NCBI GenBank assembly: GCA_008501735.1
Contig: QQUF01000046.1
Coordinates: 1-19,714 of the forward strand
Direction of reading: 5' to 3'
From: Calditrichota bacterium
Lineage (GTDB): Bacteria > CLD3
Length of the DNA stretch: 19,714 nt
Part shown: positions 1 through 16,163 of the stretch, piece after piece
How positions within the stretch are numbered: the first letter of the stretch is position 1
Layout of the letters: every line of letters starts with the position of its first letter
Translations under genes and position numbers: made by a program
Notes under the pieces: model-generated
Databases searched by the model: none
The model's input: only the letters and a program-made list of their open reading frames with translations
What the model was told of the DNA's origin: nothing

Positions 1-3000
1 TTATTTTGCAATTCTTCATAGATTTCTCTTGCTTGCTGATTCTTAACCAACGCTTCTTCAAATTTTCCAATTTCATTATAAATTATAGAAGTAAAAAGTA
101 AAGCTGAGCAAATCCCAGCTTTATTATTCAATTGTCGGTTCAATTTTAACTGGATTTTTATGTTTTCAAGTGCCTTTTCATATTCGATAGACTGAATATA
201 AAATAAACAAAGTGATTTGTGAATTTCTGCAATTAGAGAAATATCACCTGTTTTCTTTGCAAAATAAACTGATTTTTGATAGTATTTTGATGCTTGCTCA
301 AATTCGCCCGAAAAAGCATAAATTCCACCTAAATTAAGCAAGGCATTAGTTGTTTGCCTATAAAATCCCATCTCTTCTGAAATTTCTCTTTCCTTTGAAA
401 AATAAAAAATTGCTTCTTCACTGTTTCCTTCCTTAAGGTGACGATGTGCAAATCCAAGAGCTTCTAATAATTCTGCATATCTTAATGGGTCGCTTAGTTT
501 CTCACAATTTTTTACTTGACCTTCCAAAAATTTTACGGCTTCAGCGTACTTACTTTGTAAAATTATCACTAAACCTAAGTTCAAATTGGCATCAAAAATT
601 TTCTTCTCATTTCTTAGTTTAGTAAAAATTTTAAGTGCTCGATTTAAAATTTCAATTGAATCGTTAACCTGTCCTAATTTTCGTAAATTAATAGCTTTGG
701 TCAACAAACCATTCCCAAATTCTAATTCTTCCCCTAATTCTTCAAATTCATTAATTGCTTTTTCAACGAATGAATTTGATTCTAAAAAATCACCTTTACT
801 TGCAAAAATATTAGCCAAAGAATCATTCGATTTTGCGATTCTCATTTTATCTTCACTTTTTTGAGAAAGCTCTAAAGATTTCAAGCAAATATTTTCGGCT
901 TCTTCCATTTTGCCTAAAGTGCTAAGGAGGTTTCCTTTTGCCAAAAAACAATCAATTAATTTTTTATTGTCTTGAGAATTTTCTAAAAATTCAATTGCAT
1001 TGTTAAGGTATTGTAATGCTTTTGCACTTGAATATTTTCCTGTAAGCACTTCACTAGCTTTGATACAATATTTTATAGCTTTTTCAGAATTTCCGCATTG
1101 ATAAAAATGCTCTGCTAAATCTTCGATGACTTCAATTTTGTTTGAAGAAAATTTATTTTCAAGAAATTCACCAGCTTTTTTGTGTAATTCTAATTTAGCT
1201 TTTGGAATGAGATTTTTTTCAAGAGTTTCGCGGATTGAATCGTGAGTAAAGCTAAAACTATTTTTGCCAACCTTTTCCAAGAACCTCAAAGAGAAAGCTG
1301 CTTTCAGGCTCTTTTTTACACTTTCCTTTGAGTTGTTTGAAATTTCGTAAAATGTCTCTTCTCCAAAATTTTTGCCAAGAATCGAAGCAACTTGCAATGA
1401 CTCAACAACATCTTTTCCTAATAAAATCAGACGCTCATTAATCACCGAAGAAATCGTGCTTGGAATTTCAACTTTCGTCAAAGAGTCCAAATTTAAATCC
1501 CAATTTCCATTTTGGTCTGTGAGCAAATCTTTCTCGTAAAGATTGTAAATTATTTCTTGAGTAAAAAGTGGACTTCCTTTCGTTTTCTCAAAAATAAATT
1601 CCGCAAATTCTGTTTCAATAATGTCAGTTTTCCCAAGAATTGAAGTAAGAATTTGGGCAATTTCCTCAAGATTAAGGGGTTTTAATTCAATGATTTCAGG
1701 TTTGTAATCGGCTTGAATTTCTGACCAAATTTTAGCAAAAGGCGAATTCTTAATCGCACGAGTTCTAAAATTTCCGACAAAAAGGATAGCTGAGTTTTCC
1801 AAATTACGAAACATTTGAAGCAACCACTTTGCACTCAATTCATCAGCCCATTGCAAGTCTTCGATGTTTAAAATCAGAATTTTATCTTTTGAAAGGTTTA
1901 TCAAAAAATTGATTAAAGAATTAAACAAACGAATTTCGCCGTCTTGCCCTTTTAATTCATCAATTTTCTCAATCTTTTTCATAAAGTTCATTTGAGAAAG
2001 TGGCGGATAAATTTTCACAAAATCCCAAGCAAATCTTCCCAAAGTCTCTGCTTTCTTCTTATCGGAAAACGAGGAAATAATGTTAACAGCTTTTGAAAAA
2101 ATATTCACAAGAGGCTCAAAAGAAGTTCCATTTTTAGAACATTTTGCTTCAAGCAGATTTGCGTTTTGCAAATTTAAACCAACACGAAATTCTGTCCAAA
2201 GTTTTGATTTTCCAATTCCAGATTCACCCAAAATGAAAACGCCTTTTGCACTTCCTTTCCCAACTTCTGAAAAGGCTTTTTCTAAAACTTTTAATTCATT
2301 TTCTCTTGAAACAAAAATTGAAGGTAAAAGATAAGATTTAGCTTTTCCGATTTCCTTAAAATCACCTTTTTTGAGAAAATTATTCAATTCTCTTGAGACT
2401 TCGCTTGCACTTTGGAATCTGTCGTTTGGGTTCTTCTCTAACAATTTTAGAATAATTTTTTCAATGGTTGTCGGCAAATCGGGAAAAACCTGCCTTGGCG
2501 AAATTATTGGTGAACGAAGATGAGCTAAAGAAATTTCCCCAAGCGAGTTACCGTTTATCGGAAAAACGTCAGTTACTAATTTGTAAAACAAAATTCCAAG
2601 TGAGTAAAGGTCGCTTCTATGGTCAATTTTTCCTGAATCTTGGCATTGTTCAGGTGAGGAATATTTTGCAGTTCCAAGAAAAGCTCCAGAAGCTGTTAAG
2701 GTAGAAGAAGTGTCAAGTTTCACGAGGTCAAAATCTGTAATCTTGATTTGGCCATCTTTTGTCTCTAAAATATTTGCAGGTTTCAAATCTCTGTGAACAA
2801 TTCCATTTTGATGGAGTGCTTCAATTCCATTTGCAATTTGGATAATTTTTGAGATTTTTTCTTGTAGAGACGCAAGATTTTGCGTCTCTACGATGGAATT
2901 ATCTTTTCCAACAGACGCACTTCTGTGCGTCTCTACGGAATCCACAAATTCCATCACAAAACCGATTTCGTCTTTTTCCTCATACCATTCAATCATTTTT

Positions 3001-3188
3001 ACACAATTTGGGTGCGAGACTTTCTGTGCAGACTCAAAACCACGTTTGATTCTTTTAATTTCTTTTGGGCTTTTGTAATTCTCGTGAATTAATTTTAGTG
3101 CGTAAAATTCTCCGTTAGTGGATTTTTTAACTTTGTAAACTGTTCCGAAAGTTCCAGAAGCAATTTTGGAAATTTTATTGTAGGGCAT
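1..3188 (-). CDS. Giant Ser/Thr protein kinase - STAND-like ATPase - TPR regulator (3' end off window)
   Basis: The minus-strand frame is open from an ATG at 3188 to the window edge, giving 1062 residues without a stop, so the C-terminus is missing. Residues 1-~275 form a Hanks-type kinase: glycine loop SGTFGTVYKV, lysine in YALKLI (about K32), catalytic HRDLKPAN (D134), TDFDLVK in place of DFG (D152), then GTAKYSSPEQ. A STAND/AAA-type ATPase follows, with Walker A GESGIGKSK near 320 and Walker B ILNIEDLQWAD near 440. From about 690 to the edge come TPR-like helical repeats. It is closely related to the complete 1682-residue protein at 9231-14279, so GAF and sigma-54 domains probably follow off window (inference). 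Residues 85-109 are encoded by two palindromic repeat copies and make this protein 14 residues longer than its paralogue there. The ribosome site is weak (AAAGAAAA before ATG). The start is fixed by alignment with the paralogue. It lies 202 bases after an exported propeller gene, as does the paralogous pair. Confidence 0.93.
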   Translation of the reverse strand, partial: MPYNKISKIASGTFGTVYKVKKSTNGEFYALKLIHENYKSPKEIKRIKRGFESAQKVSHPNCVKMIEWYEEKDEIGFVMEFVDSVETHRSASVGKDNSIVETQNLASLQEKISKIIQIANGIEALHQNGIVHRDLKPANILETKDGQIKITDFDLVKLDTSSTLTASGAFLGTAKYSSPEQCQDSGKIDHRSDLYSLGILFYKLVTDVFPINGNSLGEISLAHLRSPIISPRQVFPDLPTTIEKIILKLLEKNPNDRFQSASEVSRELNNFLKKGDFKEIGKAKSYLLPSIFVSRENELKVLEKAFSEVGKGSAKGVFILGESGIGKSKLWTEFRVGLNLQNANLLEAKCSKNGTSFEPLVNIFSKAVNIISSFSDKKKAETLGRFAWDFVKIYPPLSQMNFMKKIEKIDELKGQDGEIRLFNSLINFLINLSKDKILILNIEDLQWADELSAKWLLQMFRNLENSAILFVGNFRTRAIKNSPFAKIWSEIQADYKPEIIELKPLNLEEIAQILTSILGKTDIIETEFAEFIFEKTKGSPLFTQEIIYNLYEKDLLTDQNGNWDLNLDSLTKVEIPSTISSVINERLILLGKDVVESLQVASILGKNFGEETFYEISNNSKESVKKSLKAAFSLRFLEKVGKNSFSFTHDSIRETLEKNLIPKAKLELHKKAGEFLENKFSSNKIEVIEDLAEHFYQCGNSEKAIKYCIKASEVLTGKYSSAKALQYLNNAIEFLENSQDNKKLIDCFLAKGNLLSTLGKMEEAENICLKSLELSQKSEDKMRIAKSNDSLANIFASKGDFLESNSFVEKAINEFEELGEELEFGNGLLTKAINLRKLGQVNDSIEILNRALKIFTKLRNEKKIFDANLNLGLVIILQSKYAEAVKFLEGQVKNCEKLSDPLRYAELLEALGFAHRHLKEGNSEEAIFYFSKEREISEEMGFYRQTTNALLNLGGIYAFSGEFEQASKYYQKSVYFAKKTGDISLIAEIHKSLCLFYIQSIEYEKALENIKIQLKLNRQLNNKAGICSALLFTSIIYNEIGKFEEALVKNQQAREIYEELQN
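2864..2891 (-). repeat. Palindromic REP/MITE-like unit inside kinase coding sequence (copy 1)
   Basis: A 28-base inverted repeat with perfect 12-base arms, GTAGAGACGCAA and TTGCGTCTCTAC, around a 4-base loop GATT. It is read in frame in the kinase gene and encodes roughly VETQNLASL, just after the hinge segment MEFVDS and before the helix leading to HRDLKPAN. A diverged copy sits at the same place in the paralogue (13997-14024), so this insertion predates the gene duplication. GTAGAGAC...GTCTCTAC palindromes are, from memory, common dispersed repeats in cyanobacteria and FCB-group genomes; this was not searched. Confidence 0.85.
2895..2936 (-). repeat. Second palindromic unit: 42-base in-frame insertion flanked by GGAAT
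   Basis: Against the paralogue, this stretch is extra sequence of exactly 42 bases (14 codons). It contains a second palindrome at 2909-2936: the arm GTGCGTCTCTAC is intact and the other arm, CAACAGACGCAC, matches 9 of 12. The block begins with GGAAT (2895) and is followed by GGAAT (2937), which looks like a target-site duplication or a slippage footprint. It keeps the reading frame of the kinase gene and adds the stretch ETHRSASVGKDNSI. Confidence 0.75.
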
Positions 3189-3275
3189 TTTAATTTTCTT
3201 TGGTTTGAGTTTAGAGCATTTTACCCGCCAATCGGGACAATTTTTATAAGACAAATTTCGTCTTTAGCGAGTCGA

Positions 3276-3390: not shown

Positions 3391-4602
3391 TTATTTGAGT
3401 AAAATCATTTTGTTTGTTTGAGTGAAAGTTCCTGCTGTGAGTTTGTAGAAGTAAGTTCCATTTGAGACAGACTTTCCGTTTTCGTCAGTTCCGTTCCAAA
3501 CAACATTGTGTGAACCTTCTTGTTGAAATCCTTTTGTGAGTTCTTTTACAAATTCACCTTTTATGTTGTAAATCTTAAGACTAACTCTCGTGTCTTTAGC
3601 AATTTGGTAAGAAATTGTTGTGCTTGGGTTGAAAGGGTTAGGGAAGTTTTGTGCTAATTTGTATTCTTTCTTAGAAATTACTTCTTCTTCACCAAGAACA
3701 AATTTTACAGCTTGAGATTGAGTTTCGTGTTTAGTTTCAAGCTCATTAGTTTCAACATCAGAAATGTAGTAAGTATAAAGTTCATTGTTTCTAAGTTGAG
3801 AATTATCAACAAACGAGTAGTTATTTTGGAAGGTTGAGTTTCCTTGTCCTAAAAGTTCATTATGACTTTTGTAAGAAGCAATTTGAATGAAGTTTCCGTT
3901 ACCTGTTTTTCTATAAACATTAAAACCTTCGTTTTCAGTCTCAGAAGCAGTTGACCAATTGAGTGAAATTGAATTTTCGATTTGACGAGCTGTGAAAGAA
4001 TTTAATTCAACAGAAAGTGGTGCATCATTAATTCCAATTGTAATTCCTATAGGAAAATCTAAACCGGTAACTAAATCTTCCACATTTGAGCCGTCTAAAT
4101 CTGCACGTTGGATTTTATTTGTTCCATCATCAATCCAATACATTTTTGAATTGGTTAAATCTAATGCGATTCCAACAGGAAGACTTAAACCTGTTGTAAC
4201 GAGGTCTTCTACATTAGAACCGTCTAAATCTGCTCTTTGGATTTTATCCGTTCCATAGTCAGTCCAATACATTTTTGAATTGGTTAAATCTAATGCGATT
4301 CCTTCAGGAGTATCTAATCCTGTAACAAGGTCTTGAACATTAGAGCCGTCTAAATCTGCTCTTTGGATTTTATCCGTTCCATCATCAACCCAATACATTT
4401 TTGAATTGGTTAAATCTACTGCGATTCCAACAGGAGTACTTAAACCTGTAGTAACAAGGTCTTCAACATTAGAACCGTCTAAATCTGCTCTTTGGATTTC
4501 ATTCGTTCCAGTATCAGTCCAATACATCTTAGTTGCAAATGAATTAGTGGCTAAAGCTAACCCTAAGATGAGAGTTAAAAGTAAAGTAGAGAGTTTTTTC
4601 AT
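3391..4602 (-). CDS. Exported YWTD-repeat protein with T9SS sorting tail (four repeats)
   Basis: 403 residues. An N-terminal signal peptide (MKKLSTLLLTLILGLALA, cleavage near ATNSFA) is followed by four tandem 42-43-residue YWTD/LDL-receptor-class-B-type repeats at about residues 24-193, each with KMYWxD and KIQRADLDGSNVEDLV. A fibronectin-III-like segment runs from about 195 to 300 (LNWSTASETENEGFNVYRK). The last ~85 residues are a T9SS type A sorting domain (LAQNFPNPFNPSTT to GTYFYKLTAGTFTQTNKMILLK). It should cross the inner membrane by Sec and be exported and surface-anchored or released by the T9SS. YWTD propellers normally need six blades, so four repeats is odd. The DNA of the repeats is almost identical (period 126 or 129 bases), suggesting recombinational contraction. 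The start is supported by AAGGA at 4611-4615, 8 bases from the ATG. The ligand is unknown. Confidence 0.93.
   Translation of the reverse strand: MKKLSTLLLTLILGLALATNSFATKMYWTDTGTNEIQRADLDGSNVEDLVTTGLSTPVGIAVDLTNSKMYWVDDGTDKIQRADLDGSNVQDLVTGLDTPEGIALDLTNSKMYWTDYGTDKIQRADLDGSNVEDLVTTGLSLPVGIALDLTNSKMYWIDDGTNKIQRADLDGSNVEDLVTGLDFPIGITIGINDAPLSVELNSFTARQIENSISLNWSTASETENEGFNVYRKTGNGNFIQIASYKSHNELLGQGNSTFQNNYSFVDNSQLRNNELYTYYISDVETNELETKHETQSQAVKFVLGEEEVISKKEYKLAQNFPNPFNPSTTISYQIAKDTRVSLKIYNIKGEFVKELTKGFQQEGSHNVVWNGTDENGKSVSNGTYFYKLTAGTFTQTNKMILLK
4023..4533 (-). repeat. Tandem 126/129-base coding repeats (YWTD blades)
   Basis: Four near-identical direct repeats encode the YWTD blades of the 4602-3391 protein. 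For example, the segment CTCTTTGGATTTTATCCG recurs at 4233 and 4359, 126 bases apart. The identity between units is clearly higher than between blades of the two six-repeat paralogues, which points to recent homogenisation or copy-number change. Confidence 0.85.
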
Positions 4603-4707
4603 CGTTTTGTTCCTTATTTTTTAAATGAAAAACCCGCATTAAGCGTGAAATTTAAAAATTGTTTTTTTTTAAAAGGTTTTTCAAAACCTATTAAAACTTG
4701 CAAATTT

Positions 4708-4850
4708 CTACTTCAACAAAATCATCTTGTTAGTTTTAGTAAAAATTCTAACTGTGATTTTGTTGAAGTTAGTGCCATTTTAAGACAGACTTTCCGTTTT
4801 CGTCTGTTCCGTTTCAAAATGCTTCGTGTGGACCTTTGCTAAGTAGAACT
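4708..4850 (-). pseudogene. Decayed fragment of a T9SS sorting domain
   Basis: Minus-strand translation matches the last ~45 residues of the neighbouring T9SS tails but is broken. LSKGPHEAF is followed by TGA where the family has tryptophan, then NGTDENGKSV. A one-base frameshift comes next, and the other frame continues NGTNFNKITVRIFTKTNKMILLK with a TAG stop at 4708-4710. The closest relative by eye is the 4602-3391 tail, which shares the segment NGTDENGKSV. No signal peptide or repeat domain remains. A weak trace of the NVYRK-coding segment may lie at 4893-4916. This is the remnant of a further exported-protein gene, or of a duplicated tail. Confidence 0.85.
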
Positions 4851-4916
4851 TAATCCCTTAACTCGGTTTGAAAAAAATGAGCAATCCAATTCTGCTCAAA
4901 AACATTAAAATCTGCG

Positions 4917-4945
4917 GTAGAAACAAGGCATTGCATTGTCGCTAC
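4917..4945. repeat. Worn 29-base palindrome of the GTAG...CTAC family
   Basis: The element runs from GTAGAAACAAGGCA to GTCGCTAC and keeps the ends GTAG and CTAC. From memory it differs at about three positions from a dispersed repeat with arms GTAGAGACAAGGCA and TGCCTTGTCTCTAC. It shares the GTAGAGAC ends with the units inside the kinase genes but has a different core, so it looks like an old member of a related subfamily. Confidence 0.5.
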
Positions 4946-5102
4946 GTCATTTATTTCAAATTCTTAAAAATGTCTAAAGTATTGTTTGGTAAAAGTTTGT
5001 AAAAACAAATCATAACGATTGAAATTTAAATATGAAATTTTATCTTGCAAATAAAAAATATTGAAAAAACGTTAGTAAGGTAATTTTTTTCTAACCGAAA
5101 AT

Positions 5103-5134
5103 AAAAAAAGCCCGACAAAATTAATTGTCAGGCT
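5103..5134 (-). terminator. Rho-independent terminator of the FG-GAP propeller gene
   Basis: On the minus strand AGCCTGACAA, loop TTAATT and TTGTCGGGCT form a 10-base stem with one G-U pair, directly followed by seven T. It lies 25 bases after the stop codon of the 7015-5159 gene. The same hairpin occurs after two other exported-protein genes in the window. Confidence 0.88.
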
Positions 5135-5158
5135 CCTTTAGTAAGAGAGAGAAAAAAA

Positions 5159-7015
5159 TTATTTTAATAAAATCATTTTGTTAGTTTGTGTGAAAGTTCC
5201 AGCAGAAATTTTGTAGAAGTAAGTTCCGCTTGAAACTTGGTTTCCAAAGCTGTCTGTTCCGTTCCAGTTTGCTGAATGAGAACCTTTGCTCATTTTTTCA
5301 TTTACAAGTTCTTTAACTAACTCACCTTTGAGGTTGTAAACTTGGAGTTTTACGTCTTGTGTTTTTGCAATTTGAAAATTGATTTTTGTGCTTGGGTTAA
5401 AAGGATTTGGAAAATTCTGTGCTAAAACGTAGTCGAGTTTAGTTTGTGCAATTTCTTCGTTTAGTGTGAATCTTACAGTTTGTGCTAATTTGACGTGCTT
5501 GGTTTCGAGTCCGTTAGTTTCAACATCAGAAATGTAGTAAGTGTAAGTTTCGCCGTTTCTGAGTTCTGAATTGTCAACAAAAGTGTAGTTGTTTGAAGTT
5601 GTAGAATTTAAAGCACCGAGAAGTTCTGAGTTTCCTTTGTAAGAAGCGATTTCTACAAAGTTACTGTTTCCAGTTTTTCTGTAAACGTTGAACCCTTCGT
5701 TGTCTTTTTCAGAAGCAGTAGTCCAATTGAGTTGAATTGTGTTTTCGATTTGACGAGCTTGGAAAGAATCAAGTTCAACTGCAAGAGGAAAATCTCCACC
5801 GTCAGCTGCAAAAAAAGATGCAGAACCGGAATCAGTGCCATTGTCATCGTCAAAAGAATTCCCTACAAAAATAATTTCACTACTTATTGCAACAGCTAAA
5901 CCGAAACCATCTGAAACTCCAAGTTCGCTTTGTGCAAGTTTAGTTTGTTGTGTCCACGTAACGCCACTTCTATTAAAAGAATATGCTGCACCAGAACTCA
6001 CGACTCCTGCATTATTGTTAGGAGCTCCAACTATAATGTTATCTCCTTCAATTCCTACCGAAGTGCCGAAGGCATCATTGATAGTTCCATCACTCGCAGT
6101 TAGTTTTGCTTGCTGACTCCAAGAGACTCCACTTCTTGTAAAGACGTAAGCTGAACCAGAGTTGCTTCCTCCATCATCGTCTTGGTAAGACCCAACAACC
6201 ACATAATCACCATCAATTGAAACTGAATATCCAAAAAAATCACTTGCTGCCGCATCACTTGCCGTAAGTTTTGCCTGTTCTGACCACGAAGTTCCACTTC
6301 TTGTAAAGACGTAAGCTGAACCGGATTCATTTCCTCCGTCATCATTTTTCCGAGCTCCAACAATTAAATCATCTCCTTTTATAGAAATAGAGCAACCAAA
6401 TTCATCAAAAGCTGCCGCATCACTTGCCGTAAGCTTTGCCTGTTCTGACCACGAAGTTCCACTTCTTGCAAAGACGTAAGCTGAACCGGAACTAAATGGT
6501 AAATCATCATTTGCCAACGCACCGACTGCGGCATAATCTCCGTCAATAGAAACTGTTACTCCGAATTCGTCAAGTGCAGCTGCATCACTTGCTGTTATTT
6601 TTGCTTGCTCTGTCCACGAAGTTCCACTTCTAACAAAAATGTAAGCAGAGCCTGAATTACTTCCGTTATCATCATTTTTATAAGCTCCAACAATTGCATA
6701 GTCTCCGCTGATACCAACAGAGATTCCAAAGTTGTCGTCTTCCGATGCATCACTTGCGGTAATTTTAGCTTGTTGTGCCCAGGTTGTTCCACTTCTTTTA
6801 TAAATGTAAGCAGAACCTGAATTATTTGTTCCATCGTCATCAAATTGAGCTCCAACAATTGCATATTCTCCATCAATAGAAACGGCTTCAGCAAATTTGT
6901 CGCCTGCAGCACCGTCTCCGGCAAAAATTTTTTCTTCATATTGTGCAAATGAGTTTGCAAAGATTCCAAGGCTAAGTGCTAAAGTTGGGATAAGTGTTTT
7001 TGTAAAAGTTTTCAT
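5159..7015 (-). CDS. Exported FG-GAP propeller protein with T9SS sorting tail
   Basis: 618 residues. The signal peptide MKTFTKTLIPTLALSLGIFA is cleaved near NSFA. Seven tandem ~53-residue FG-GAP-type repeats (about residues 35-400) follow the pattern DxFGxxVSIDGDYxxVGAxxDDDG, then NSGSAYVFxRSGTSW and EQAKLTASDAA. Seven units fit a closed integrin-alpha-like seven-bladed propeller, and the Asp/Asn-rich loops could bind calcium (inference). A fibronectin-III-like segment (LNWTTASEKDNEGFNVYRK) and a T9SS type A tail (LAQNFPNPFNPST to TNKMILLK) complete it. The C-terminal half is nearly the same as in the two YWTD paralogues, whereas the propeller is a different family: a clear domain swap on a shared export module. 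It lies 104 bases after the 8604-7120 gene and is probably co-transcribed with it. The ribosome site is weak (GGA, 8 bases before ATG). The ligand is unknown. Confidence 0.93.
   Translation of the reverse strand: MKTFTKTLIPTLALSLGIFANSFAQYEEKIFAGDGAAGDKFAEAVSIDGEYAIVGAQFDDDGTNNSGSAYIYKRSGTTWAQQAKITASDASEDDNFGISVGISGDYAIVGAYKNDDNGSNSGSAYIFVRSGTSWTEQAKITASDAAALDEFGVTVSIDGDYAAVGALANDDLPFSSGSAYVFARSGTSWSEQAKLTASDAAAFDEFGCSISIKGDDLIVGARKNDDGGNESGSAYVFTRSGTSWSEQAKLTASDAAASDFFGYSVSIDGDYVVVGSYQDDDGGSNSGSAYVFTRSGVSWSQQAKLTASDGTINDAFGTSVGIEGDNIIVGAPNNNAGVVSSGAAYSFNRSGVTWTQQTKLAQSELGVSDGFGLAVAISSEIIFVGNSFDDDNGTDSGSASFFAADGGDFPLAVELDSFQARQIENTIQLNWTTASEKDNEGFNVYRKTGNSNFVEIASYKGNSELLGALNSTTSNNYTFVDNSELRNGETYTYYISDVETNGLETKHVKLAQTVRFTLNEEIAQTKLDYVLAQNFPNPFNPSTKINFQIAKTQDVKLQVYNLKGELVKELVNEKMSKGSHSANWNGTDSFGNQVSSGTYFYKISAGTFTQTNKMILLK
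5800..6950 (-). repeat. Tandem ~159-base coding repeats (FG-GAP blades)
   Basis: Seven direct repeats encode the FG-GAP blades. Adjacent central units share long identical stretches, such as the segment encoding SGTSWSEQAKLTASDAAA, which implies recent unit duplication or homogenisation. The outer units, and especially the last one, are more diverged. Confidence 0.8.
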
Positions 7016-7079
7016 TTTTTATGTCCAAATATTTTTGTTTTTAAAGTTGGTTGTGAGATTGTTTCTTGAAGTTGGAAAA

Positions 7080-7110
7080 GACCTGAAAGGTTTTCAAAAC
7101 CTTTCAGGTC
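7080..7110 (-). terminator. Perfect 15-base-arm palindrome, probable terminator or attenuator
   Basis: The arms GACCTGAAAGGTTTT and AAAACCTTTCAGGTC surround a single base. On the minus strand the stem is followed by TTTTCC, and it begins 9 bases after the stop of the 8604-7120 gene. It can act as a terminator or as an mRNA-stabilising hairpin between two exported-protein genes. ACCTGAAAGGTTTT-type palindromes are, from memory, a common dispersed repeat in Bacteroidota; this was not searched. A shorter relative, AGGTTTT/AAAACCT, lies at 4674-4689. Confidence 0.7.
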
Positions 7111-7119
7111 GTAAATTTT

Positions 7120-8604
7120 CTATTTGAGTAAAATCATTTTGTTAGTTTGTGTGAAAGTTCCGGCTGAAATTTTGTAGAAGTAAGTTCCGCTTGAAACTTG
7201 GTTTCCAAAACTGTCAGTTCCGTCCCAGTTTGTAGAGTGTGAACCCTTGCTAAGATTTTCATTCACAAGTTCTTTCACGAGTTCACCTTTGAGGTTGTAA
7301 ACTTCGAGTTTTACGTCTTGAGTTTTTGCAATTTGGAAATTGATTTGTGTGTTTGGGTTAAAAGGATTTGGGAAGTTCTGTGCTAAAACGTAATCAAGTT
7401 TCGTTTGTGCAATTTCTTCGTTTAGTGTGAATTTTACTGTTTGTGCTTGAGCAACGTGCTTAGTTTCAAAACCATTTGTTTCGACATCAGAAATGTAGTA
7501 AGTGTAAGCTTCATTATTTTTAAGTTCAGAATTGTCAGTGAAAGTGTAGTTGTTTGAAACTGTTGAATTTAATGCACCGAGAAGTTCAGAGTTGCCTTTG
7601 TAAGAAGCGATTTGAGTGTAGAAACTATTGCCCATTTTTCTGTAAACATTGAAACCTTCGTTTTCTTTTTCAGAAGCAGTTGTCCAATTGAGTAGGATAG
7701 AATTTTCGATTTGACGAGCTGTGAAAGAATCAAGTTCAATTGCAAGAGGTGAATCATCAACGCCTAAATCTAATCCATTTGGAAAATTTAACCCTGTAAC
7801 AAGGTCTTCAACACTTGAGCCATCTAAATTAGAACGTTGAATTTTATCCGTTCCGGCATCAGACCAATACATTTTTGAATTTGCAACATCTAATGTAATC
7901 CCTCTTGGTGTATTTAAACCAGAGGTTACAAGGTCTTCAATACTTGAACCATCTAAATTTGAGCGTTGAATTTTATCTGTTCCATTATCAACCCAGTAAA
8001 TTTTAGAATTTGTTAAATCAATTGTCATTCCCCAAGGGTCGTTTAAACCTGTAACAATATCTTCAACACTTGAACCATCTAAATTTGCTCGTTGGATTTT
8101 ATTTGTTCCGGTATCATTCCAATACATTTTTGAATTTGTAACATCGATTGCTATTCCATAAGGAATACCTAATCCAGTAACAAGGTCTTCAACACTTGAA
8201 CCGTCTAAGTTTGCTCGTTGGACTTTTTTGGTAGAAAAATCAACCCAGTACATTTTAGAGTTTGTAATATCTAATGCTAATCCACAAACAAAGATTATTC
8301 CGTTTGAAGCATTTGTAACAAGGTCTTCTACATTTGAACCGTCTAAATCTGCACGTTGGATTTTTCTATTTCCTGCATCTGTCCAATACATTTTAGAATT
8401 TGTAGGATCTACAACCATTCCATAAGGAATACTTAAACCGGTTGTAACAAGGTCTTCCACATTTGAACCGTCTAAATCGGAACGTTGAATTTTATCTGTT
8501 CCTTCATCAACCCAATAAATTTTTTCTGCAAATGAGTTTGAAACTAAAGTTAAACCTAAGCTAAGTGCTAAAGTTGGTACGAGCGTTTTTGTAGAGATTT
8601 TCAT
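7120..8604 (-). CDS. Exported six-repeat YWTD propeller protein with T9SS sorting tail
   Basis: 494 residues. I chose the ATG at 8604 because it follows AGAGGA (8613-8618) by 8 bases and begins a proper signal peptide, MKISTKTLVPTLALSLGL, cleaved near NSFA. An in-frame ATG at 8688 would add 28 residues unlike a leader. Six YWTD repeats (residues ~28-280; KIYWVDEGTDKIQRSDLDGS and variants) match a closed six-bladed propeller. A fibronectin-III-like segment (LNWTTASEKENEGFNVYRK) and a T9SS type A tail (LAQNFPNPFNPNT to MILLK) follow. Bases near the 3' end are almost identical to those of the 7015-5159 gene. It is first of a likely two-gene run, behind a sigma-54-like promoter at 8816-8832 and a small ORF. 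A secreted sensor or adhesin is plausible. No catalytic motif is visible. Confidence 0.93.
   Translation of the reverse strand: MKISTKTLVPTLALSLGLTLVSNSFAEKIYWVDEGTDKIQRSDLDGSNVEDLVTTGLSIPYGMVVDPTNSKMYWTDAGNRKIQRADLDGSNVEDLVTNASNGIIFVCGLALDITNSKMYWVDFSTKKVQRANLDGSSVEDLVTGLGIPYGIAIDVTNSKMYWNDTGTNKIQRANLDGSSVEDIVTGLNDPWGMTIDLTNSKIYWVDNGTDKIQRSNLDGSSIEDLVTSGLNTPRGITLDVANSKMYWSDAGTDKIQRSNLDGSSVEDLVTGLNFPNGLDLGVDDSPLAIELDSFTARQIENSILLNWTTASEKENEGFNVYRKMGNSFYTQIASYKGNSELLGALNSTVSNNYTFTDNSELKNNEAYTYYISDVETNGFETKHVAQAQTVKFTLNEEIAQTKLDYVLAQNFPNPFNPNTQINFQIAKTQDVKLEVYNLKGELVKELVNENLSKGSHSTNWDGTDSFGNQVSSGTYFYKISAGTFTQTNKMILLK
7770..8523 (-). repeat. Tandem ~126-138-base coding repeats (YWTD blades)
   Basis: Six direct repeats encode the YWTD blades of the 8604-7120 protein, recognisable by recurring codings for YW, IQRxxLDGSS and VEDLVTGL. 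They are more diverged from one another than the four units of the 4602-3391 gene. Confidence 0.8.
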
Positions 8605-8630
8605 TTTTTTAATCCTCTGTCTTATTAAAA

Positions 8631-8777
8631 TTATTGATTTAAAATTATTTGTTCTAAAATGATTTGTATGAAAAGAACCAAAACACAACCAAGAAGAGTC
8701 TTTAGGGTTGTCCTAACTAATTCTATCTTTTTTGGTATTAAAGATTCGTCTTTATAAGTTTTGCTTGGGTTTTTCAT
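8631..8777 (-). CDS. Possible 48-residue membrane peptide
   Basis: A short ORF with a charged N-terminal half (MKNPSKTYKDESLIPKKIEL) and a hydrophobic C-terminal helix (LLGCVLVLFIQIILEQIIL). TAGGA lies 11 bases upstream of its ATG. It is the first start codon after the sigma-54-like promoter, about 29 bases from the expected transcript start, and it ends 26 bases before the 8604 start, so it could be a small membrane protein or a leader peptide of the exported-protein gene. I recognise no family. It may also be chance in AT-rich leader sequence. Confidence 0.4.
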   Translation of the reverse strand: MKNPSKTYKDESLIPKKIELVRTTLKTLLGCVLVLFIQIILEQIILNQ

Positions 8778-8815
8778 TTTTTAAGTTTTCCTATTTTGTT
8801 TCTGCTCTTTGAACT

Positions 8816-8832
8816 AACAAGCTCTGTGCCAA
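8816..8832 (-). promoter_or_regulatory. Sigma-54-like promoter
   Basis: Minus strand TTGGCAC-AGAGC-TTGTT fits the -24/-12 consensus TGGCAC-N5-TTGC, with the invariant GG and correct spacing. The final C of -12 is T. A very similar element (TTGGCAT-AAAGC-TTGA) precedes the 15880-14396 gene. Adjacent genes encode sigma-54 activator domains, which supports the reading. The expected transcript start is near 8806, just before the small ORF. Confidence 0.55.
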
Positions 8833-8885
8833 AATCATAAACCCCTTAAAAACAACACTTTGTGAGATTTGTGACTTCCCAATAA

Positions 8886-8904
8886 AATAGTCGTTTTGAC
8901 TATT
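8886..8904. promoter_or_regulatory. Inverted-repeat site AATAGTC-N5-GACTATT
   Basis: A 19-base site with perfect 7-base arms around GTTTT. It is one of several copies of the TAGTCATTTTGACTA motif between 8886 and 9096, and is the closest copy to the sigma-54-like promoter, starting 54 bases upstream of it. It is a candidate activator or operator site. Confidence 0.5.
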
Positions 8905-8956
8905 AATTTCAGACAGTAGATTTTTAAGTAATTGTAATTACAAGGCTTAGTAGAAT

Positions 8957-8994
8957 AATAGTCATTTTGACTATTGTGGCTATAATGACTATTA
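8957..8994. promoter_or_regulatory. Nested inverted-repeat sites (AATAGTCATT ... AATGACTATT)
   Basis: The outer arms AATAGTCATT (8957-8966) and AATGACTATT (8985-8994) are perfect 10-base inverted repeats. Inside, AATAGTCATTTTGACTATT (8957-8975) is itself an inverted repeat. Position for position, the block resembles the next one at 9043-9083, so the array looks like a duplicated ~41-base unit. Confidence 0.5.
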
Positions 8995-9042
8995 AAATTT
9001 GATATAGAGTTGTAAGTATTTGTATTTATTAGAAATAATAAA

Positions 9043-9096
9043 AATAGTCATTTTGGCTTTTTGGGTTACAGTGACTCTTTAAGTCAAAATGACTAC
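9043..9096. promoter_or_regulatory. Inverted pair TAGTCATTTTG ... CAAAATGACTA
   Basis: Perfect 11-base arms at 9045-9055 and 9085-9095 are separated by 29 bases. A further TGACT half-site lies between them at 9072. Together with 8886-8904 and 8957-8994 this makes at least five copies of the same half-site upstream of the promoter, a pattern expected for cooperative binding of an activator (inference). Confidence 0.5.
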
Positions 9097-9140
9097 TTCC
9101 TAATTTTGGGTAAAATTTGAATGTGTTTGGTGAGATTATA

Positions 9141-9176
9141 GATAAAGTGAGTTTGTGGAATAAAAGTTACTTTATC
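9141..9176. repeat. Inverted repeat GATAAAGT ... ACTTTATC
   Basis: Perfect 8-base arms at 9141-9148 and 9169-9176 with a 20-base spacer, just beyond the terminator of the regulator gene. It could be a secondary 3' hairpin or a protein site. Nothing further supports a role. Confidence 0.35.
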
Positions 9177-9187
9177 GTTTGAAAGGA

Positions 9188-9213
9188 AGAAAAAGACACA
9201 CGAATGTGCATCT
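9188..9213 (-). terminator. Rho-independent terminator of the 1682-residue regulator gene
   Basis: On the minus strand AGATGCAC, loop ATTC and GTGTGTCT form an 8-base stem with two G-U pairs, followed by TTTTTCTTCC. It starts 17 bases after the stop codon of the 14279-9231 gene and isolates that gene from the downstream regulatory stretch. Confidence 0.75.
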
Positions 9214-9230
9214 TTTAAAATAAATTAATT

Positions 9231-12200
9231 TTAACTATTTTTGAGGCTTGAAACATCAATGTCGTGTTTCTTCAAAAGTCTATCTAATCTTTTGTTGTTT
9301 ACTCCAAGTTCTTGAAATGTGTTTTTTAAATGAAAATTGTTTTTCTTTAATGCTTTCAGAACTAAATGCTTTTCTAAAATCCCAATCTTTTCATTTAAAT
9401 CAAAATCTCCTGAAAGTTTTTCTTCCAATTCACTTCTTTGAAGATTTTCATTGGATTGTGAAGGTTTAATTTCTTGTGGATTTTCAAGGGTATTGATGTT
9501 TAAATCTCTTAAAGAAATTAAAGTTTCTGATTTCGTTTTGACAAAACAAAGTGCAACGAGGTTTTCAAGTTCACGAACATTTCCTTCCCAACTTTGAGCA
9601 AGTAAAATGTTAATCGAGTCTTGTGTAAAGCCTTTTAATTTCTTTCCTGTTTCTTTGTTGAATTTTCTCAAAAAGTGGTAACAAAGTGGAATTATGTCTT
9701 CGCTTCGTTCTCTCAAAGGTGGAATTTCAATTTTCAGAAATGCTATTCTATAAAAAAGGTCTTTCCTAAAGTTCCCTTTCTTTACTTCTTCTTCCAAGTT
9801 TTTATGAGTTGCAATGACAATGCGTGATTTAATTTTTGTCGGTTTTTCTGCTCCAACTTTCCAAACTTCATTCTCCTGAATTACTCTAAGCAACTTTGCT
9901 TGAATGTCCAAAGAAAGTTCAGCGATTTCATCAAGGAAAAGAGTTCCTTTGTTCGCAAGTTCAAACTTTCCTTTTTTATCAGTTGTTGCTCCGCTGAAAG
10001 AACCTTTTGTGTGTCCGAACAACTCACTTTCTGCTAAGTCTTTTGGAATTGCAGAACAATTGATTGCAATAAATGGCTCATTTCTTCTTAGGCTTAATTT
10101 GTGCAAAGAATTTGCAACAAGTTCTTTTCCTGTTCCTGTTTCTCCGTGAATGTAAACTGTGAAGTTTACTTTTGCTGCTTCTTCAATTTCTGAATAAACT
10201 TTTTGCATTTCAGGACTATTTCCAACAAAGATTCCGAGTTTGTTAATCTCGGATTCTATTTTCATTTTGATAGCTTCGTTTTGCCTTTGGAGAACAGGAG
10301 ATAAAATGTTAGCAATCGATTTTACTTTTTCTAAATCCGAATTTTCAAAAAATCCTTTTTCAATTTTCAATCTGTCAAGGTAAAGTGCTCCGATAACTTT
10401 GTTTTTTACTTTGAGCGGAACTGCGATTACTGAAAGAAATATTTTACCGATAACACTCTGATTTTCTTTTAACTCAGGAATTTCAAGAACATTTTTTAGT
10501 AAAGTTGGTTTGTCTTCTTCAATTGCTTTTTTAAGAACTGTTGTGGAAAATTCAATCTCTTCATCTTTCAAATTTGAAGAAATCGCAATTGGTTCAAAAC
10601 CTTTTTCATTTTTTAAAATGATTTGGCAACTGCCCGAATTTGTTTCTTTCAATAGAAACTTAAGAAGCTCATCAAAAACAGTTTCAGGAGTCAACCAATT
10701 TGTCAAAGATGAAATTAATTCAGGATAGATTTCATTAGTTTTGAATTCAATTTCCTCAAGAAAATCAATTTTCTTTTTAATAAAAAATAATTCTTTGGTT
10801 TTGAATTCATTTTTAAAAAAGTCCAGAGTTTCCAACTTTAGTTTTTGAAAATTGATTTTCTTTTCAAGGAGATAGGGAGGCTTCTTTTCTTCAAATAATT
10901 TGCAAAGTTCAAAGGCAATTTCATACTTTGGTTCTGAAGAATCAGTTAGTCTTTTTAATTCTAAAAGATTATTAATAGCTTCGTTTTTGTTGCCTAACTC
11001 AAAGTCGATTAACTCTTTCTGAATTTTTACTTTTGTTTTAAGAATGTTAGATTCAAAATCCTTACCCAAATATTCAAACGCTTTTTGACAAAGTTTTTCT
11101 GCTTTATGAATGTCTTTTTTTGCAAAGCAAGACTTTGAAAGTAGGTAATGAGCAAAGCAAATATTTTCAAAGTCATTAACCTTTTCTAATAAAGGAAATG
11201 ATTTTTCATAGAAATCATTAGCTTCTTTATACCTTTTAGTTTCGTATAAAAGTTCACCATAATTAATATAAAGTTGACTTAAATATTGTTCTGAATTAAT
11301 TTTTGTACATATTTGAATTTGCTTTTTGATAATTGATTCACTTTCCTCAAAATCACCTATTAGAAAATATACTTTTGCCAACTCATTTAAAATCCAAGGA
11401 TAGGCTAATAAATTTAATTCTGATAGTTTGGAACTTGCTTGTATAAAGTATTTTTTAGCATCTTTTAATTTTCTCTCTCTTAGATTTATTCGCCCTAAAA
11501 ATCCTAAAGATTGAATAACTCCTGGATTAAATCCAAATTCTTCAGATTTTTCAAAACACAAATTAAACTGATTTTTTGCTTTTTCATATTTATGGAATTT
11601 CTCATAATTACTACCCATATGAAAATGGTAGGAAATTATACTTGTAATATCTCCGTATTCTTCCAAAAGCTGGAAACTACTTTTGTATAAAGTTTCTGCT
11701 TTTTCATATTCTTGTTTTTGAGATGCTATTTTCCCTTCTTGAAAAATGACAGTACCTAAAATATTTTTTGAATTAGTTTTTTTTCCTATTTCTTTAGCCT
11801 TCATCAAAAATATTTTTGCCTTTTCATTTTCATTTAAAAAGGAATATAGAAAACTAATTCTTATGTAAGTTCTTCCTACTTCAACTAAATTGTCAATTTT
11901 TTCAAATACTTCTTTTGCCTGAAAGTAAATTTTAAAAGCCTCATCGTATTCTCTTTGAACCCGTTTTAATTCCCCAATTCCAATTAAACTTGATGCTTTT
12001 ACCGAACTGTTTTCCTTAGCTTTTTCACTTGCTTTTGTAAAATATTGTTCTGATTTTTTTACTTCGTTTATACCAAAGAATATTCTTCCTAATTTTAAAT
12101 AAGTATTCGATTGAAGTTCTTCATCATTTGAATTTTCAATAAAATCTAAGATTTTTAACAAATACCGAATCGAAATATTAAAAATTTGTTGTTGCTCATA

Positions 12201-14279
12201 AATGTCGGCTAATTTAAGTCCATAATGAATTGACTTTTCTTGGTTTGATGCCTGTAAGAAATGTTCGAGTAATTCAGCCAGAATTTCACTTTCAGGATAA
12301 TTCGCTTCAAGGTAATTCCCGATTTCTGAATGATAAGTTTTAAAAACCTTTTGGTTAATTCCTTGTGAAATCCCTTCTCTAAATGATTCGTTCTCGAATT
12401 CAAAAATTCCCTCTTTATTTCTAATTAAAATTCCTTGAAGTTTTTGATTACTAAATTCTTCCTCAACTTTATTCTCGTTTAATAGCAAAATCTCCGCAAC
12501 AATTTTGCTATTAAAATACTTACCGAGTAAAGACCCAACTTCAAGAAGTTTCAACAAATTTTTATCAAATAATTTAAATCGTTCATTTACGACACTCTGA
12601 ATGGATTTGGGAAGTTTTAAGTCCCCAAAGTTTTCAGTGTTTAAATCCCAAACGCCTTTATCTTTTTTTAGTTTTTGGGTTTCAAATAGATGAAACATTA
12701 TTTCCTGAATTAAAAATACATTTCCACTTGTTCGTCTCAAAATTTCTTCACAAAAACTTGTGTTAACAGGCTCAGATTTTCCAAACATTTTCGTTAAGTA
12801 AGTTTTTACTTCTCCAAGTGAGAAATTATTAAGTTCTATTAAAAAAGTGTTTCCAAGCTCACTTTTAAAGGTTTCTAAATTATTATCGTCTTTAGTTACT
12901 GTTCCGATTAATAAAATTGAGTTGTTAGAAAGGCTCTTCGTTAGGTATTGTAAAAATTTTAGACTTTGTTTATCTATCCATTGCAAATCGTCAAAAAAGA
13001 AAACAAAAGTTTGGTTTTTCATTTGAATATTTTTGATAAGGGTTACAAAAGATTCAAAAACTTTTTCTTCTGAATCAATTCCTTTCATAATCTTTAATTC
13101 GTCTAAAAATTCAAAACATTTATTTCTTTCAAGAATTGGCAAAATAGCCGCCAAATGTCTTCCTAATGTTCCAATTTTTTCAGCTTGTTCTTTTGCTGAA
13201 AGGTTTCCAATTTGCTCTAAACATTGAGTTAGAATTAGTTGAAGAGGTTCAAAAATTTTTCCATCTTTTTTACAAGTCGTTTCAAAAATTAATTCTGAAT
13301 TTTGAGTTAAACCTAATTTGAATTCCTTCCACAATTTTGTTTTTCCAACTCCTTGTTCTCCACTCAACAAGACTGTTTTTAGTTTGCCATTTGAGACTTC
13401 AGAATAGATTTTGTTCAATTCTAAAAATTCTTTCCTTCTTCCCACAAAATCGGGAGTAAGGAGAAAATCTCCAAAGGTTTCTAAGTTTTCAACTTTTCCT
13501 TCTTTTAAAAAAGTGTTTAAGATTTTTGAAACTTCTTGAGCTGATTGAAACCTGTCTTTTGGGTCTTTTTTAAGAAGTTTAGAAATTACGGTGTTCAAAA
13601 CTTCGGGTAAATCGGGAACGAATTGTCTTGGGGAAATCAGAGGAGTTCTAATGTGTGCAAGTGCAATTTCAGCGAGAGAGTTTCCGTCAAAAGGAACTCT
13701 GCCACAAACTAATTGGTAAAAAAGAACACCAAGTGAATAAAGATCGCTTTTATAATCAACTTTTGTTGCACTTTGGCATTGTTCGGGAGAAGAATATTTT
13801 GCTGTTCCAAGAAAAGCTCCCGAAGCTGTTAGAGTAGAAGAATCATCAATTTTTACTAAGTCAAAGTCTGTAATTTTGATTTGACCTTCTTTTGTTTCGA
13901 GAATGTTTGCAGGTTTCAAATCCCTGTGAACGATTCCTTTTGAATGTAGAGCTTCAAGTCCATTTGCAATTTGAATTATTTTTGAGATTTTTTCTTGTAG
14001 AGAGGTAAGATTTTGCGTCTCTACAACAGAATCCACAAATTCCATAATAAAACCGATTTGGTCTTTTTCTTCGTACCACTCAATCATTTTTACACAATTT
14101 GGGTGCGAGACTTTTTGTGCAGTCTCAAAACCACGTTTGATTCTTTTAATTTCTTTTGGAGTTTTGTAATTCTCGTGAATGAGTTTTAGTGCGTAGAATT
14201 CACCGTTAGTGGATTTTTGAACTTTGTAAACGGTACCAAAAGTTCCAGATGCAATTTTGGAAATTATAGAATATGTCAT
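9231..14279 (-). CDS. Giant one-protein regulator: Ser/Thr kinase - STAND ATPase - TPR - GAF - sigma-54 AAA+ - HTH
   Basis: 1682 residues, complete. Kinase at 1-~260: SGTFGTVYKV, K32, HRDLKPAN (D120), DFD at 138-140 instead of DFG, SSPEQ. STAND-like ATPase: Walker A GEQGVGKT at 307-314, Walker B FFFDDLQW near 428. TPR helical repeats run from about 660 to 1110, and a GAF domain from about 1185 to 1330 (ends VIGALYLDR...FFENSDLEKV). Sigma-54 interaction AAA+: Walker A GETGTGKE near 1380, GSFSGA near 1430 where the family has GAFTGA, Walker B TLFLDEIAEL, then LREREDI-like PPLRERSEDI. A C-terminal Fis-type HTH (VLKALKKNNFHLKNTFQELG to LLKKHDI) closes it. I infer a cytoplasmic activator in which phosphorylation, nucleotide and ligand inputs control sigma-54 transcription. 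AAGAGA precedes the ATG. It follows the 15880-14396 propeller gene by 116 bases across a terminator. Confidence 0.95.
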   Translation of the reverse strand: MTYSIISKIASGTFGTVYKVQKSTNGEFYALKLIHENYKTPKEIKRIKRGFETAQKVSHPNCVKMIEWYEEKDQIGFIMEFVDSVVETQNLTSLQEKISKIIQIANGLEALHSKGIVHRDLKPANILETKEGQIKITDFDLVKIDDSSTLTASGAFLGTAKYSSPEQCQSATKVDYKSDLYSLGVLFYQLVCGRVPFDGNSLAEIALAHIRTPLISPRQFVPDLPEVLNTVISKLLKKDPKDRFQSAQEVSKILNTFLKEGKVENLETFGDFLLTPDFVGRRKEFLELNKIYSEVSNGKLKTVLLSGEQGVGKTKLWKEFKLGLTQNSELIFETTCKKDGKIFEPLQLILTQCLEQIGNLSAKEQAEKIGTLGRHLAAILPILERNKCFEFLDELKIMKGIDSEEKVFESFVTLIKNIQMKNQTFVFFFDDLQWIDKQSLKFLQYLTKSLSNNSILLIGTVTKDDNNLETFKSELGNTFLIELNNFSLGEVKTYLTKMFGKSEPVNTSFCEEILRRTSGNVFLIQEIMFHLFETQKLKKDKGVWDLNTENFGDLKLPKSIQSVVNERFKLFDKNLLKLLEVGSLLGKYFNSKIVAEILLLNENKVEEEFSNQKLQGILIRNKEGIFEFENESFREGISQGINQKVFKTYHSEIGNYLEANYPESEILAELLEHFLQASNQEKSIHYGLKLADIYEQQQIFNISIRYLLKILDFIENSNDEELQSNTYLKLGRIFFGINEVKKSEQYFTKASEKAKENSSVKASSLIGIGELKRVQREYDEAFKIYFQAKEVFEKIDNLVEVGRTYIRISFLYSFLNENEKAKIFLMKAKEIGKKTNSKNILGTVIFQEGKIASQKQEYEKAETLYKSSFQLLEEYGDITSIISYHFHMGSNYEKFHKYEKAKNQFNLCFEKSEEFGFNPGVIQSLGFLGRINLRERKLKDAKKYFIQASSKLSELNLLAYPWILNELAKVYFLIGDFEESESIIKKQIQICTKINSEQYLSQLYINYGELLYETKRYKEANDFYEKSFPLLEKVNDFENICFAHYLLSKSCFAKKDIHKAEKLCQKAFEYLGKDFESNILKTKVKIQKELIDFELGNKNEAINNLLELKRLTDSSEPKYEIAFELCKLFEEKKPPYLLEKKINFQKLKLETLDFFKNEFKTKELFFIKKKIDFLEEIEFKTNEIYPELISSLTNWLTPETVFDELLKFLLKETNSGSCQIILKNEKGFEPIAISSNLKDEEIEFSTTVLKKAIEEDKPTLLKNVLEIPELKENQSVIGKIFLSVIAVPLKVKNKVIGALYLDRLKIEKGFFENSDLEKVKSIANILSPVLQRQNEAIKMKIESEINKLGIFVGNSPEMQKVYSEIEEAAKVNFTVYIHGETGTGKELVANSLHKLSLRRNEPFIAINCSAIPKDLAESELFGHTKGSFSGATTDKKGKFELANKGTLFLDEIAELSLDIQAKLLRVIQENEVWKVGAEKPTKIKSRIVIATHKNLEEEVKKGNFRKDLFYRIAFLKIEIPPLRERSEDIIPLCYHFLRKFNKETGKKLKGFTQDSINILLAQSWEGNVRELENLVALCFVKTKSETLISLRDLNINTLENPQEIKPSQSNENLQRSELEEKLSGDFDLNEKIGILEKHLVLKALKKNNFHLKNTFQELGVNNKRLDRLLKKHDIDVSSLKNS
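13997..14024 (-). repeat. Palindromic REP/MITE-like unit inside kinase coding sequence (paralogous copy)
   Basis: The ends GTAGAGA and TCTCTAC, and most of the core, match the unit at 2864-2891, with two mismatches in one arm (GTAGAGAGGTAA). It lies at the same codon position and encodes VETQNLTSL (about residues 86-94), in the loop after the kinase hinge. Arm mismatches suggest it is now drifting as ordinary coding sequence. Confidence 0.8.
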
Positions 14280-14341
14280 AAAAAATCTCTTACTTATTGT
14301 TACATCGAAAACTTAAAACAGAAACTTTATTTTCACAAAAC

Positions 14342-14378
14342 AAAAAAAGCCTGGCAAAATTAATTGTCAGACTTTTTT
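14342..14378 (-). terminator. Rho-independent terminator of the six-repeat propeller gene
   Basis: On the minus strand AGTCTGACAA, loop and TTTGCCAGGCT form a ~10-base stem with one mismatch, followed by seven T. It lies 17 bases after the stop at 14396. The sequence beyond it (about 14312-14341) also resembles 3301-3337, showing that the whole propeller-to-kinase spacer was duplicated with the genes. Confidence 0.82.
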
Positions 14379-14395
14379 GAAAGAGAGTAAGAAAT

Positions 14396-15880: not shown

Positions 15881-15950
15881 TTTGAAATCCTTTGTTTAAG
15901 TTTATGATTAAAAAATATTTTTTTAAAAGTTTGACTATGCCCTTACTTCG

Positions 15951-15966
15951 TCAAGCTTTATGCCAA
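15951..15966 (-). promoter_or_regulatory. Sigma-54-like promoter
   Basis: Minus strand TTGGCAT-AAAGC-TTGA resembles the -24/-12 consensus TGGCAC-N5-TTGC, with GG and spacing intact and the last C replaced by A. It shares the core TTTGGCAYARAGCTTG with the element at 8816-8832. It lies about 70 bases upstream of the ATG at 15880 and 165-197 bases downstream of the paired repeats at 16131-16163, a typical distance for enhancer sites. Confidence 0.5.
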
Positions 15967-16130
15967 ATAGTTTTTGTAATCAATAGACATTTCTTAACTA
16001 ATGAATAAACAATTACTTGTATAAATTTTAAAAATTTAAACGAAAAAAATATTGATGAGCCAGACTGGAACAGTCGAGCATACAGTTTTGTCTCAAGTTA
16101 TGTATTTACAATATTTTATCTAAGTGAGCT

Positions 16131-16163
16131 GAATTGGCTCAATGGTTCAATTGGGCTCAATTG
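16131..16163. repeat. Paired near-palindromic repeats AATTGG(G)CTCAAT
   Basis: GAATTGGCTCAATG (16131-16144) and CAATTGGGCTCAATTG (16148-16163) are direct copies of one motif. The second is a near-perfect 16-base palindrome with one mismatched pair. They overlap the stop codon of the upstream regulator gene. They could be activator sites for the 15951-15966 promoter, or a small repeat insertion that altered the gene's 3' end. Confidence 0.45.

Follow-up and report, generated by a model that had tools for sequence, protein, structure and literature searches.

The window, the whole stretch of DNA analysed here, comprises the 19,714 nucleotides of contig C47 from a draft Calditrichota genome (4.14 Mb, 59 contigs) and carries two related Ser/Thr kinase genes, gene 1 (C47a) and a paralogue (C47b), each containing palindromic sequence within the kinase coding region. 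The features considered are as follows.

2364..3188, minus strand: Ser/Thr kinase domain of gene 1, within ORF 3-3254, which is truncated by the contig start; kinase-AAA-TPR
2864..2891, minus strand: REP2 of gene 1, family A1, a double-foot palindrome encoding VETQNLASL(Q), identical to dispersed genomic copies
2895..2936, minus strand: 42-nt block (REP1 plus spacer), bounded by ATTC/GGAAT direct repeats and missing in the window's second kinase
2913..2936, minus strand: REP1 of gene 1, family A2, one-footed (GTAG plus AGACGCAC-AGAA-GTGCGTCT), encoding VETHRSAS
9231..14279, minus strand: paralogous kinase-AAA-TPR-GAF-sigma54-activator gene, the window's second kinase (C47b; C47:13497)
13997..14024, minus strand: diverged A1 REP in the window paralogue, encoding VETQNLTSL(Q)

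The palindrome in gene 1, GTAGAGACGCAAGATTTTGCGTCTCTAC, extends over 28 bp at 2864-2891, consists of perfect 12-bp arms around a 4-nt centre and encodes, in frame on the minus strand, VETQNLASLQ, a short distance past the hinge, MEFVDS, of the Pkinase domain, as an earlier note on this DNA had described. The diverged copy which that note had placed in the paralogue at 13997-14024 is likewise present, as is a 42-base block at 2895-2936 containing a second palindrome and having GGAAT on both sides, at 2895 and 2937. Matches to GTAGAGACGC with at most one mismatch occur four times in the window compared with 0.15 expected, and half-sites of the corresponding family, GTAGAGACGCA, number 60 genome-wide compared with zero for a reversed control, indicating that the palindrome in gene 1 did not arise by chance.

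The family to which the palindrome at 2864-2891 belongs, termed A, has 13 exact members genome-wide, this one included, and occurs as A1, in which both ends bear GTAG/CTAC, or as A2, in which GTAG is present at a single end. Another family, B (GTAGGGAAC...GTTCCCTAC; in full, GTAGGGAACAAAAATTTTTGTTCCCTAC), is represented by 38 exact palindromes and 121 half-sites (GTAGGGAAC). Repeat locations were judged on ∼766 kb of genome stretches containing 95 clusters, with ∼20 of the 121 B half-sites lying outside this inspected set and ORFs being called with a simple script. Most of the clusters inspected lie outside ORFs, in agreement with the proposal that the repeat is dispersed, normally intergenic and found elsewhere in the genome. 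Clear in-frame REPs in real genes were restricted, among the 95 clusters, to the alphaD-loop site of kinase paralogues and to the genes for REP-associated tyrosine transposases (RAYTs). Exact A or B palindromes are absent from G001, the only genome available from the same family, and from nearly all other relatives searched, and A-type ends were detected among the other genomes only in G053, with a different core. A cluster of inverted repeats of the form AATAGTCATTTTGACTATT is located at 8886-9098 of the window, in the intergenic stretch before 9231.

The genome-wide copies refute the view that the kinase palindrome is ordinary coding sequence, palindromic by chance through a conserved peptide, to which we attach virtually no credence. 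Residues S-L-Q are encoded in most REP copies of the kinases, as such a peptide would suggest, but the palindrome matches dispersed intergenic copies exactly, a change in REP type from A to B alters the peptide from VETQNLA to VGNKNLC while base pairing is kept, and the REP is missing in the sister genus.

A check for a RAYT transposase revealed two RAYT-like genes, one per REP family, each flanked by repeats of that family. The gene at C55:99473-100006 contains an A2 REP and has A palindromes on both sides, and that at C48:189106-189699 contains a B REP and is surrounded by a B array; this array, densely packed with B half-sites and palindromes, is situated at the contig end, C48:188871-189941. 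Both match NF047646 (E 1.6e-18 and 1.5e-17), though with scores under its curated threshold of 80 bits, and PF01797, with scores close to the threshold. In these two genes, as in the majority of related RAYTs from other genomes, the MPNH[IVLF]H motif is followed by an in-frame palindrome; the REPs after the HuH motif of the two genes are read as MPNHIHG...VGNKNFCSLP and MPNHIHG...EKTHRRASLQ. In vitro, REP hairpins are cut and rejoined by RAYT proteins, whereas transposition in cells has been deduced indirectly. Two further RAYT sequences show unusual inserts: in L276 (G008:C444:48017-48661) the internal REP loop has grown to ∼7 VGAGLNVD-like units, and a third RAYT-like gene (L286/L290; G000:C24:89093-90037; 323 aa) carries an extended stretch of low complexity within the same internal-REP loop.

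This organisation corresponds to that of the double-foot GTAG REPs associated with subclass 2.4 TnpAREP (RAYT group 4), a subclass for which double-foot REPs and in-frame REPs inside the tnpAREP genes have been described as a feature (Quentin 2018, PMC6006769). Each feature tested was observed here: a perfect palindrome with GTAG at the 5' and CTAC at the 3' end, many dispersed and mainly extragenic copies, a cognate RAYT flanked by the same REPs and an in-frame REP inside the RAYT, between the HuH motif and Tyr. By these features the palindromes classify as double-foot GTAG REPs of the RAYT type, the activity of the C55 and C48 RAYTs being putative. Unlike the system of Quentin 2018 (PMC6006769), in-frame REPs are also present here in a host kinase family, in which two REP families are interchanged at one site. 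REPs within genes are known already, as GTAG/CGTC REPs lying wholly inside ORFs, in frame and thought to sit in loops have been reported (Di Nocera 2013, PMC3733652), and the kinase REPs resemble these in being in frame and intragenic; in the portion of that report drawn on here, the hosts include many replication/repair genes with mostly unrelated sites, and a set of type-switching paralogues is not described. Rickettsia palindromic elements (RPE) are another class of mobile palindrome that is translated in frame as part of many proteins. Unlike the kinase REPs, which are tagged by GTAG and show no CGTC tag, intragenic RPE-4 and RPE-6 are CGTC-tagged and RPE-1 is longer, and the elements have no RAYT association and are unrelated in sequence.

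Related kinases number more than 20 in this genome, and eight of them carry REPs that are intact or nearly so at one site, with the following types.

C47a (gene 1): A2 plus A1
C43: A1 plus A1
C24b (C24:25511): A1 plus A1
C5: A1 plus B
C47b: A1, decayed
C24a (C24:16395): B
C23: B
C12: B

Thus, the REP1 position is occupied by A2 in gene 1 and by an A1 palindrome in C43, C24b and C5. A clear A1 relic is retained in the C57 kinase (20/28 positions), and at most weak relics in C50 and C38 (17/28 and 15/28, against a best of 13-16 in the REP-free paralogue background). No REP was detected at the loop site in the C32, C55 and C48 kinases nor in the orthologue from the sister genus, G001, which is 56% identical at the kinase locus; a scan of named genomes returned only distant kinases (30-36% identity). 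The identity of the REPs, their dispersal, their frame and the shared site can be read directly from the DNA, as can, in the comparisons below, the local peak of identity in C57, the junctions compatible with deletion and the difference in REP type between nearly identical flanks. Several of the kinase genes are interrupted by contig ends in the draft genome, and C24a and C24b both lie inside one long contig.

Relationships among the kinases are only partially resolved, the tree containing three well-supported clades with the other forks weak and blurred by conversion. DNA identity between C57 and the REP-bearing kinases is ∼0.55-0.62 outside the site compared with 0.79-0.86 (33-36/42) in the 3' flank downstream of the REP, and sliding-window identity rises over codon columns ∼54-135. 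The presence of a relic REP and a matching flank in this distant paralogue suggests gene conversion. In the C5 kinase, stretches resembling C47b, C24a and C24b are combined as a mosaic. Judged from these alignments, REPs reached some kinases together with their flank.

The 42-nt block had been regarded as an extra block special to gene 1, in which the repeat had expanded again. This is not the case, as the block is common to four paralogues, C47a, C43, C24b and C5. Two well-supported pairs, C24b with C47b and C5 with C24a, each combine one double-REP and one single-REP kinase. If precisely 42 nt are excised between the ATTC copies of C47a, the C47b junction is recreated, with the same length and 5 mismatches in 51 positions, and the same operation on C5 recreates the C24a junction, again with the same length and 5 mismatches in 48. 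This mixing of double and single forms within pairs, combined with the recreation of the single junctions, favours loss of the block in C47b, the window's second kinase, probably by deletion between the ATTC repeats, over a fresh insertion in gene 1. GGAAT, proposed earlier as a flanking duplication, is instead microhomology at the point where the block was lost, and a MITE-like target-site duplication was rejected since the GGAAT/ATTC copies in the kinase loop lie at the junction of a deletion. No shared target duplication at element ends was evident by eye in the flanks of the 95 clusters. A double-REP form would have arisen, and its 42-nt block would later have been lost in some copies by slippage between the ATTC repeats. 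Tandem duplication of a REP plus 14 nt is a possible origin for the block, although its spacer, KNNS, also resembles the REP-free loops LKNNS of C32 and LKNS of G001.

REP type varies at the same codons. Between A1 and B, 8 of the 28 positions are different, corresponding to four base pairs, all compensatory, with the feet being identical. The flanks are nearly unchanged across this difference, with 4/42 differences downstream and 4/60 upstream between C24b (A1) and C24a (B), and 3/42 downstream and 4/60 upstream between C47b (A) and C5 (B). Stepwise mutation hardly explains four compensated pairs within near-identical flanks, and the comparison indicates that one REP type is replaced in place by one of the other family. 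Assembly chimerism is an unlikely source of the A/B contrast because C24b and C24a lie 9 kb apart in a single 359-kb contig.

Exchange of REP type (A1 to A2, A to B) would occur between the conserved GTAG/CTAC feet at the kinase site, most simply via RAYT cleavage and strand transfer or via REP-to-REP conversion. Such exchange is chemically plausible, as TnpAREP proteins cleave next to REPs in vitro and join the ends to another strand (PMC8266576). A more specific proposal, that RAYTs swap REP hairpins in place between the feet and that the kinase loop is thus a slot for cassettes, encoding a different peptide after each swap, is offered only tentatively. We give the same modest weight to the alternative that A and B REPs separately entered the same target site in different paralogues, with conversion later homogenising the flanks. 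The existence of two REP families with two RAYTs is consistent with such independent insertion, as is the precedent of Xanthomonas recB, in which two species carry different REPs at roughly one position (Di Nocera 2013, PMC3733652); conversion among the kinase genes is evident, and a single hot-spot followed by homogenisation would look similar to exchange. However, an empty site is absent throughout the REP-bearing clade, in-place exchange takes fewer steps given flanks that differ by just 3-4 bases, and the junctions upstream of the REP vary (GATTCC, GATTCTGTT, ATTTCC, TTTCTT), so that no single target sequence is evident.

The loop between the hinge and NG is 66-81 nt long in single-REP kinases compared with 72-93 nt in REP-free kinases. 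The lengthening of the loop implied previously for the first REP is therefore not observed, suggesting that this REP replaced rather than extended the alphaD segment. Structural modelling of the gene 1 kinase using AlphaFold2 produced a confident fold (pLDDT 87.5, pTM 0.86), with residues 87-98 and 100-104 falling below pLDDT 50 and predicted as disordered; the single-REP paralogue is ordered at the corresponding loop. In these models the added residues resemble a flexible loop at the protein surface, and the REP peptide would be a tolerated surface insert. Retention of REP-encoded peptides by selection, as a generator of diversity altering kinase partner or substrate choice, appears unlikely. 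Such a role would fit the finding that, in a family exceeding 20 kinases, the eight intact or near-intact copies are without exception in frame and share one site, but the loop is predicted to be disordered or peripheral, purifying selection alone predicts in-frame survival in a tolerant loop and relics decay, as in C38, C50 and C57.

At the RNA level, the coding strand of the gene 1 region is predicted to fold at -42.3 kcal/mol compared with -18.2 in shuffled sequences (z -7.9). A strong fold of this kind is what would be expected if the palindrome formed an mRNA hairpin, or a DNA cruciform, tuning expression of the kinase gene. This appears more doubtful still than selection on the peptide, since any REP would give such a fold, pairing has decayed in the window paralogue (z -2.1) and relics exist.

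We consider it likely that, once the lineage had split from the sister genus, one REP lodged in an open frame in an ancestral kinase, within its variable alphaD/alphaE loop, and spread with duplication of the kinase family and short-tract gene conversion, this being accompanied by loss of the 42-nt block from some copies and exchange of REP type in a tolerated loop. Within this account, transposase action, the direction of exchange and the neutrality of the loop are what we infer. The new element is the in-place exchange of REP types across a gene family at a fixed coding slot, as a family of paralogues with REP types interchanging in this manner was not found described in the literature. The occurrence of A- and B-type hairpins in one slot with near-identical flanks provides a natural record of REP turnover and makes the model of hairpin exchange at the feet directly testable. 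Signalling kinases are thereby added to the proteins whose loops host REPs.

Several other properties of the kinase genes were observed. Both window kinases, like most paralogues, have DFD in place of the DFG motif. In the one polypeptide encoded at 9231-14279 of the window, Ser/Thr kinase, AAA_16, TPR, GAF and sigma-54 interaction domains are combined. Genes of the kinase-AAA-TPR(-GAF-sigma54 activator) type are repeatedly adjacent to genes for secreted proteins, YWTD-repeat proteins among them, that have a sorting tail at the C terminus (SGTYFYKL..TNKMILLK). This repeated cassette was observed at window positions 3391-19714, C24:12978-28999, C38:5001-21837, C50:78481-87172 and C5:1-6638.
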